Assembly (NCBI RefSeq): GCF_000151665.1
Contig: NW_013171824.1
Coordinates: forward strand, 1 to 64,000
DNA length: 64,000 bases
Origin: Blastocystis hominis
Taxonomy: Eukaryota > Sar > Bigyra > Opalinata > Blastocystidae
Direction: 5' to 3'
Part shown: positions 47,614-49,335 of the stretch, piece after piece
How the letters are laid out: each line of letters opens with the position of its first letter
How positions within the stretch are numbered: position 1 is the first letter of the stretch
Made by a program: the position numbers and the translations under genes
Notes under the pieces: generated by a model
The model's database searches: none
Told to the model about the DNA's origin: nothing
What the model saw: only the letters and a program-made list of their open reading frames with translations

Positions 47614-49335
<1,722 letters not shown>

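Follow-up and report, generated by a model that had tools for sequence, protein, structure and literature searches.

Selenocysteine as the most probable reading of an in-frame TGA, ahead of an unusual Ala-Asn end, in a thioredoxin reductase gene of Blastocystis hominis

Does a thioredoxin reductase gene of Blastocystis hominis stop at an in-frame TGA two codons short of a TAA, or is that TGA read as selenocysteine (Sec)? The question is posed by the minus strand of a 64,000-nucleotide stretch of contig NW_013171824.1 (hereafter the window), where the frame runs through TGC (Cys, 47628–47626), TGA (47625–47623), GCG (47622–47620), AAC (47619–47617) and TAA (47616–47614). The SC-TGA-GCG-AAC-TAA terminus described in the original prediction is therefore exact, codon by codon. 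Animal thioredoxin reductases (TrxRs) end in GC-Sec-Gly, whereas the tail here would be SC-Sec-Ala-Asn. As judged from the DNA, the Sec reading appears strongly supported, and the gene is most probably a real selenoprotein gene whose Sec-Ala-Asn end would be unusual.

Our model of the gene has six predicted exons, spliced by hand at GT..AG pairs and fitted to thioredoxin reductases. On the minus strand, exon 1 (49244–49335) would hold the ATG start and a basic N-terminal presequence, exon 2 (49146–49213) the FAD-binding GGGSGG, and exon 3 (48950–49113) the N-terminal redox motif CVNVGC at 49042–49025, followed by exon 4 (48683–48915), exon 5 (47954–48652) and the last exon, exon 6 (47614–47923), with the putative end KRSC-Sec-Ala-Asn and TAA as the presumed true stop. 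The spliced coding sequence of 1566 nt is an open frame broken solely by the TGA. The five predicted introns measure 30–34 nt each, which, like the downstream poly(A) motif TGTTTGTT, agrees with the accessible parts of two papers on Blastocystis (PMC3129679, PMC4159000), the former giving a median intron length of 31 nt. An overlooked last intron whose excision would take out the TGA was considered and rejected, as inspection by eye gave no Blastocystis-type GT..AG pair that skips the TGA yet keeps the conserved VTK. Because the first 29 residues include four basic and no acidic ones, the presequence is likely to direct the enzyme to an organelle.

The spliced protein matches TIGR01438 (TGR) with 565.3 bits (cut-off 475.85) over residues 30–519, and glutathione reductase models score below their own cut-offs on it. 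It combines the CVNVGC motif with a C-terminal extension beyond glutathione reductase, as expected of an H-type thioredoxin reductase (H-TrxR); a reductase-like gene on contig C1 lacks this extension. Its best solved relative is mitochondrial TrxR2 (PDB 1zdl; 4e-148), with an alignment that runs through residue 519, the Sec position. The window TGA coincides in place with the TGAs of two paralogs elsewhere in the genome (on contigs C24 and C38) and aligns with the two C-terminal Cys residues of 1zdl, which we take to be the Sec site of that enzyme. From VTK to the Cys preceding the TGA there are 11 residues, as in both paralogs, in vertebrate TrxR2 rows ending VTGC and, counted from ITK/VTK, in the animal mitochondrial enzyme of 1zdl.

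We built a tree of 45 rows, 40 of them picked by us from 120 listed proteins and five from Blastocystis. The window gene and a Blastocystis subtype 4 protein form a pair (100/100), and this pair groups away from the animal rows, with two metagenome proteins (92/92). The C24 and C38 paralogs cluster with another protein (98/92), in a tree that leaves many of its deeper branchings open and whose bootstrap had not converged, and share 45% identity with the window gene over the matched stretch. Because the tree places the two groups separately, the paralogs do not look like recent duplicates of the window gene.

The nearest named protein, the subtype 4 thioredoxin reductase, is 76% identical to the window protein and terminates at the Cys before the TGA, as do 9 of 9 protein relatives of the last exon (69–97% identical; P0126 is nearly the same as the subtype 4 protein, and the nine are not all independent of P0001). 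Seven of the nine end in AAKRSC, one in ASKKGC and one in AARGSC. Since all of these proteins terminate at the identical Cys, a sequencing slip at the TGA is unlikely. The protein collection cuts Sec reductases at the same place: P0119, which its source labels a selenoprotein, ends in RTGC, and 58 of the 120 listed rows end in VTGC, including vertebrate TrxR2, which presumably carries Sec at that end. Because the collection cuts other Sec enzymes there, the relatives' ends indicate a conserved stop-like codon, not its type. A scan of a genome-contig collection returned 33 loci (bacterial titles for 32, an archaeal title for one; 33–50% identity over part of the query) and no Blastocystis DNA, and a scan of a viral-contig collection found neither a relative of the window gene nor Blastocystis DNA.

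A eukaryotic selenoprotein gene is expected to carry a SECIS element in its 3′ UTR, and the original prediction had pointed to the minus-strand 3′ UTR as the place to look. A SECIS-like element does lie there. Its core (47447–47490) comprises ATGA, a helix of 10 bp that counts G-U pairs, an apical loop containing AAA, and GA; with its lower stem (helix I) it spans 47431–47506, and the predicted fold runs from the lower stem through an internal loop and helix II to the apical loop, the stems in the expected order, with a minimum free energy of −16.8 kcal/mol that is not exceptional (z −0.5). The element thus shares ATGA, helix II, apical-loop AAA, GA and a predicted lower stem with the eukaryotic SECIS of Rfam (RF00031). 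The Rfam SECIS_1 model gives it 22.7 bits at 47498–47441, under the gathering score of 35, as are the elements of C24 and C38 (27.4 bits each) and of a SelT-type gene (22 bits). The genome-wide SECIS_1 search, which also yields matches below cut-off in 4 of 14 control prokaryote genomes, scored only the best candidates, and the window element was absent among the matches listed.

We also trained a covariance model, R1, on the SPS2, SelT and C24 elements only, leaving the window element out; it was built from a trimmed alignment (A4) in which the SPS2 row is gapped inside the helix. With filters off, R1 ranked the window element top in both strands of the 64 kb, at 23.8 bits and an E value of about 0.001 (next match 11.9 bits, E 1.5); with default filters it did not find the candidate in the 64-kb window. 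A descriptor of the SECIS core, composed after the elements had been seen, gave 24 sites on both strands (128 kb), with the window element at 11.0 and the runner-up at 6.5. When the 273-nt UTR was shuffled 10,000 times with dinucleotides preserved, a score of at least 11.0 arose in 6 shuffles and one of at least 8.5, the value of the SelT element, in 50; in 5.12 Mb of shuffled window sequence, 11.0 was reached by one 2-kb segment and 8.5 by 33 (about one per 150 kb). One copy of a genomic repeat (L127) equals the window element, at 11.0, when the descriptor is loosened, so the descriptor is insufficient to decide alone. L127 shares with L100, L107 and L123 a repeated sequence (ATGATTGTCAGGAGAGAAACTC...) that mimics the SECIS core. 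Across the genome, the pattern ATGAY-N11-AAACNC has 71 matches (35 + 36), not above a backward control (35 + 37). We scored 50 of the 71, the window's own included, and three further ones are the known C24, C38 and SelT elements; R1 with default filters gave two weak matches only (E 1.5 and 2.4) among 49 pattern loci.

Decoding of UGA as Sec would also call for a dedicated machinery, which we sought in the 18.7 Mb (40 contigs) of the genome. A tRNA-Sec with anticodon TCA scores 71.4 bits and is the only one of eleven rows in that search to exceed the cut-off; SepSecS is found with an E value of 3.4e-102, and SPS2, over its cut-off, with 7.9e-50 and an in-frame TGA of its own. The SelB model has zero matches over its cut-off in the whole genome, the pieces of a gene on contig C34 included; we identified this gene as EFSec by reading DKNPQSRQRGITLDLGFS, which we take to be an EFSec motif. 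SelB-like matches on C2 and C39 were rejected as EFSec, both reading as mitochondrial-type EF-Tu. A PSTK-like gene (C38:81243–81605) scores 23.6 bits in a family common to PSTK and Kti12 and was likewise named by reading translated exons, as was the in-frame TGA of SPS2. Among 17 L7Ae-type rows in the genome, three stretches covering 4 of them were read for SBP2, and none is clearly SBP2. The original prediction had staked the Sec reading on a SECIS element or Sec machinery being present: the former lies in the 3′ UTR, and tRNA-Sec, SepSecS, SPS2 and EFSec are in the genome, together with the PSTK-like gene, all of which supports that reading.

Other genes of this genome appear to use Sec. Both paralogs end in GGC-TGA-GGT-TAA, and this single Gly after the TGA fits the original prediction, which had called an Ala-Asn end unusual. 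Their UTRs carry the two top matches of the genome-wide SECIS_1 search, which has five rows, none at the gathering score, the fourth and fifth being near-identical AT-rich loci. The third (L032, C34:657507–657447, minus strand) lies 3′ of the SelT-type gene, which has C-Q-G-TGA and a weak Rdx match, over the cut-off, of 22.8 bits. SPS2 (L035, on C14) is apparently a Sec gene itself, with FKG-TGA-GCKVPQ, and a SECIS-like hairpin at L035:2252–2292 has a mismatch-free 10-bp helix; SECIS_1 gave no report on this hairpin, in a search that left the SelT element unlisted as well. A second Rdx/SelT-like gene (L044, C10:82417–82340, minus strand) apparently has Cys replacing Sec. Because of this Cys and a spacer of 6 nt from its stop to the poly(A) motif, we take it as a non-Sec gene and rejected it as a further candidate.

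The length of the 3′ UTR is in keeping with these genes. The poly(A) motif TGTTTGTT (47329–47336, minus strand), called by the motif rule given in the accessible part of PMC4159000, lies 277 nt past the TAA and predicts a poly(A) site at about 47341. Among seven genes picked by us (five predicted Sec and two non-Sec), the spacing from stop to motif is 277 nt in the window gene, 199 nt in C24, 177 nt in C38 (measured to a one-mismatch motif), 195 nt in SelT and 191 nt in SPS2, compared with 28 nt in the reductase-like C1 gene and 6 nt in the Cys-type Rdx gene. The available text of PMC4159000 describes the 3′ UTRs of many Blastocystis genes as shrunken, which suggests that the Sec genes seem to retain long ones. 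Downstream, a convergent plus-strand gene (46351–47313), by eye a ZIP-type transporter, has a frame that arrives at GAA-T (47310–47313); because this is four nt ahead of TTTTTGTT (47318–47325), its TAA would arise by poly(A) addition. Elsewhere, the window contains a tandem repeat (51121–52026) in which at least two reading frames encode repeated peptides.

Two other accounts of the TGA have to be weighed. In one, it is a plain stop, the enzyme ends at KRSC with a single C-terminal Cys and the hairpin arose by chance. The uniform Cys ends of the nine relatives are what this account predicts, and it draws further support from the mere two codons between TGA and TAA and from the modest individual scores of the hairpin under SECIS_1 and in folding energy. 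The protein collection, however, truncates Sec reductases at just this point, a model trained without the window element still finds it, and the UTR is on a par in length with those of the remaining predicted Sec genes. Ending at one Cys would, moreover, presumably deprive the enzyme of a C-terminal redox pair. We regard a plain stop as very improbable.

Slightly less improbable, though still unlikely, is that the gene makes both forms through a choice of poly(A) site. A look-alike of the poly(A) motif, TGTTTGAT (47574–47581, minus strand), lies 32 nt past the TAA, between the stop and the SECIS element, and differs from the motif at one position. Cleavage there would yield an mRNA lacking the SECIS and a Cys-ended protein, and cleavage at the distal motif TGTTTGTT the Sec form, a switch that would operate in a nucleus whose tight poly(A) placement can create stop codons. 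In Blastocystis subtype 7, according to the accessible part of PMC4159000, the motif tolerates up to two changes and sits exactly four nt downstream of the poly(A) site in 2,333 of 2,419 genes with mapped sites, which speaks for this reading. One-mismatch sites are common, however: the 64 kb has 67 sites with at most one mismatch on one strand and 72 on the other, so about 0.3 would be expected by chance in 270 nt.

We therefore favour, with a probability of roughly 0.92, an H-TrxR with a C-terminal Cys-Sec pair, SECIS-directed recoding of the UGA, an end at TAA after Ala-Asn and a suggested organellar location. In this scheme, the UGA at 47625–47623 would be decoded by tRNA-Sec delivered by EFSec, the SECIS hairpin within the 3′ UTR (about 270 nt) would steer the recoding, and the UAA following Ala-Asn would end translation. 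Electrons in TrxRs follow a known path, and here they would pass from NADPH to FAD and then to the disulfide of CVNVGC, from which the Cys-Sec pair of the partner subunit would take them up and hand them to thioredoxin. The basic presequence suggests the mitochondrion-related organelle as the site of this work.

In the accessible part of their paper, Denoeud et al. (2011) report three Blastocystis H-TrxR genes, two of them with a penultimate Sec adjoining Cys, and read these Sec TrxRs as a sign of Sec machinery (PMC3129679). The C24 and C38 genes probably correspond to those two, and the window gene to the third. The window gene differs from that account in having two residues after its putative Sec, where the 2011 enzymes have Sec in the penultimate position, and in its basic presequence, where all three H-TrxRs were called cytosolic (PMC3129679). 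The available text of that paper contains no description of the window gene and no SECIS sequence. In the accessible text consulted on Blastocystis selenoproteins, selenocysteine and SECIS (PMC3129679, PMC5608401 and PMC7435645), we found no description of the window gene's Sec or SECIS; the main text of PMC5608401 contains none of the relevant terms, and PMC7435645 names Blastocystis solely in a reference.

The genome now has at least five predicted Sec genes: three TrxR genes, the SelT-type gene and SPS2. Candidate SECIS elements are supplied where the 2011 paper, in its accessible part, merely presumed them (PMC3129679), and a very common gut protist gains a Sec reductase that is probably directed to an organelle and has an unusual tail.
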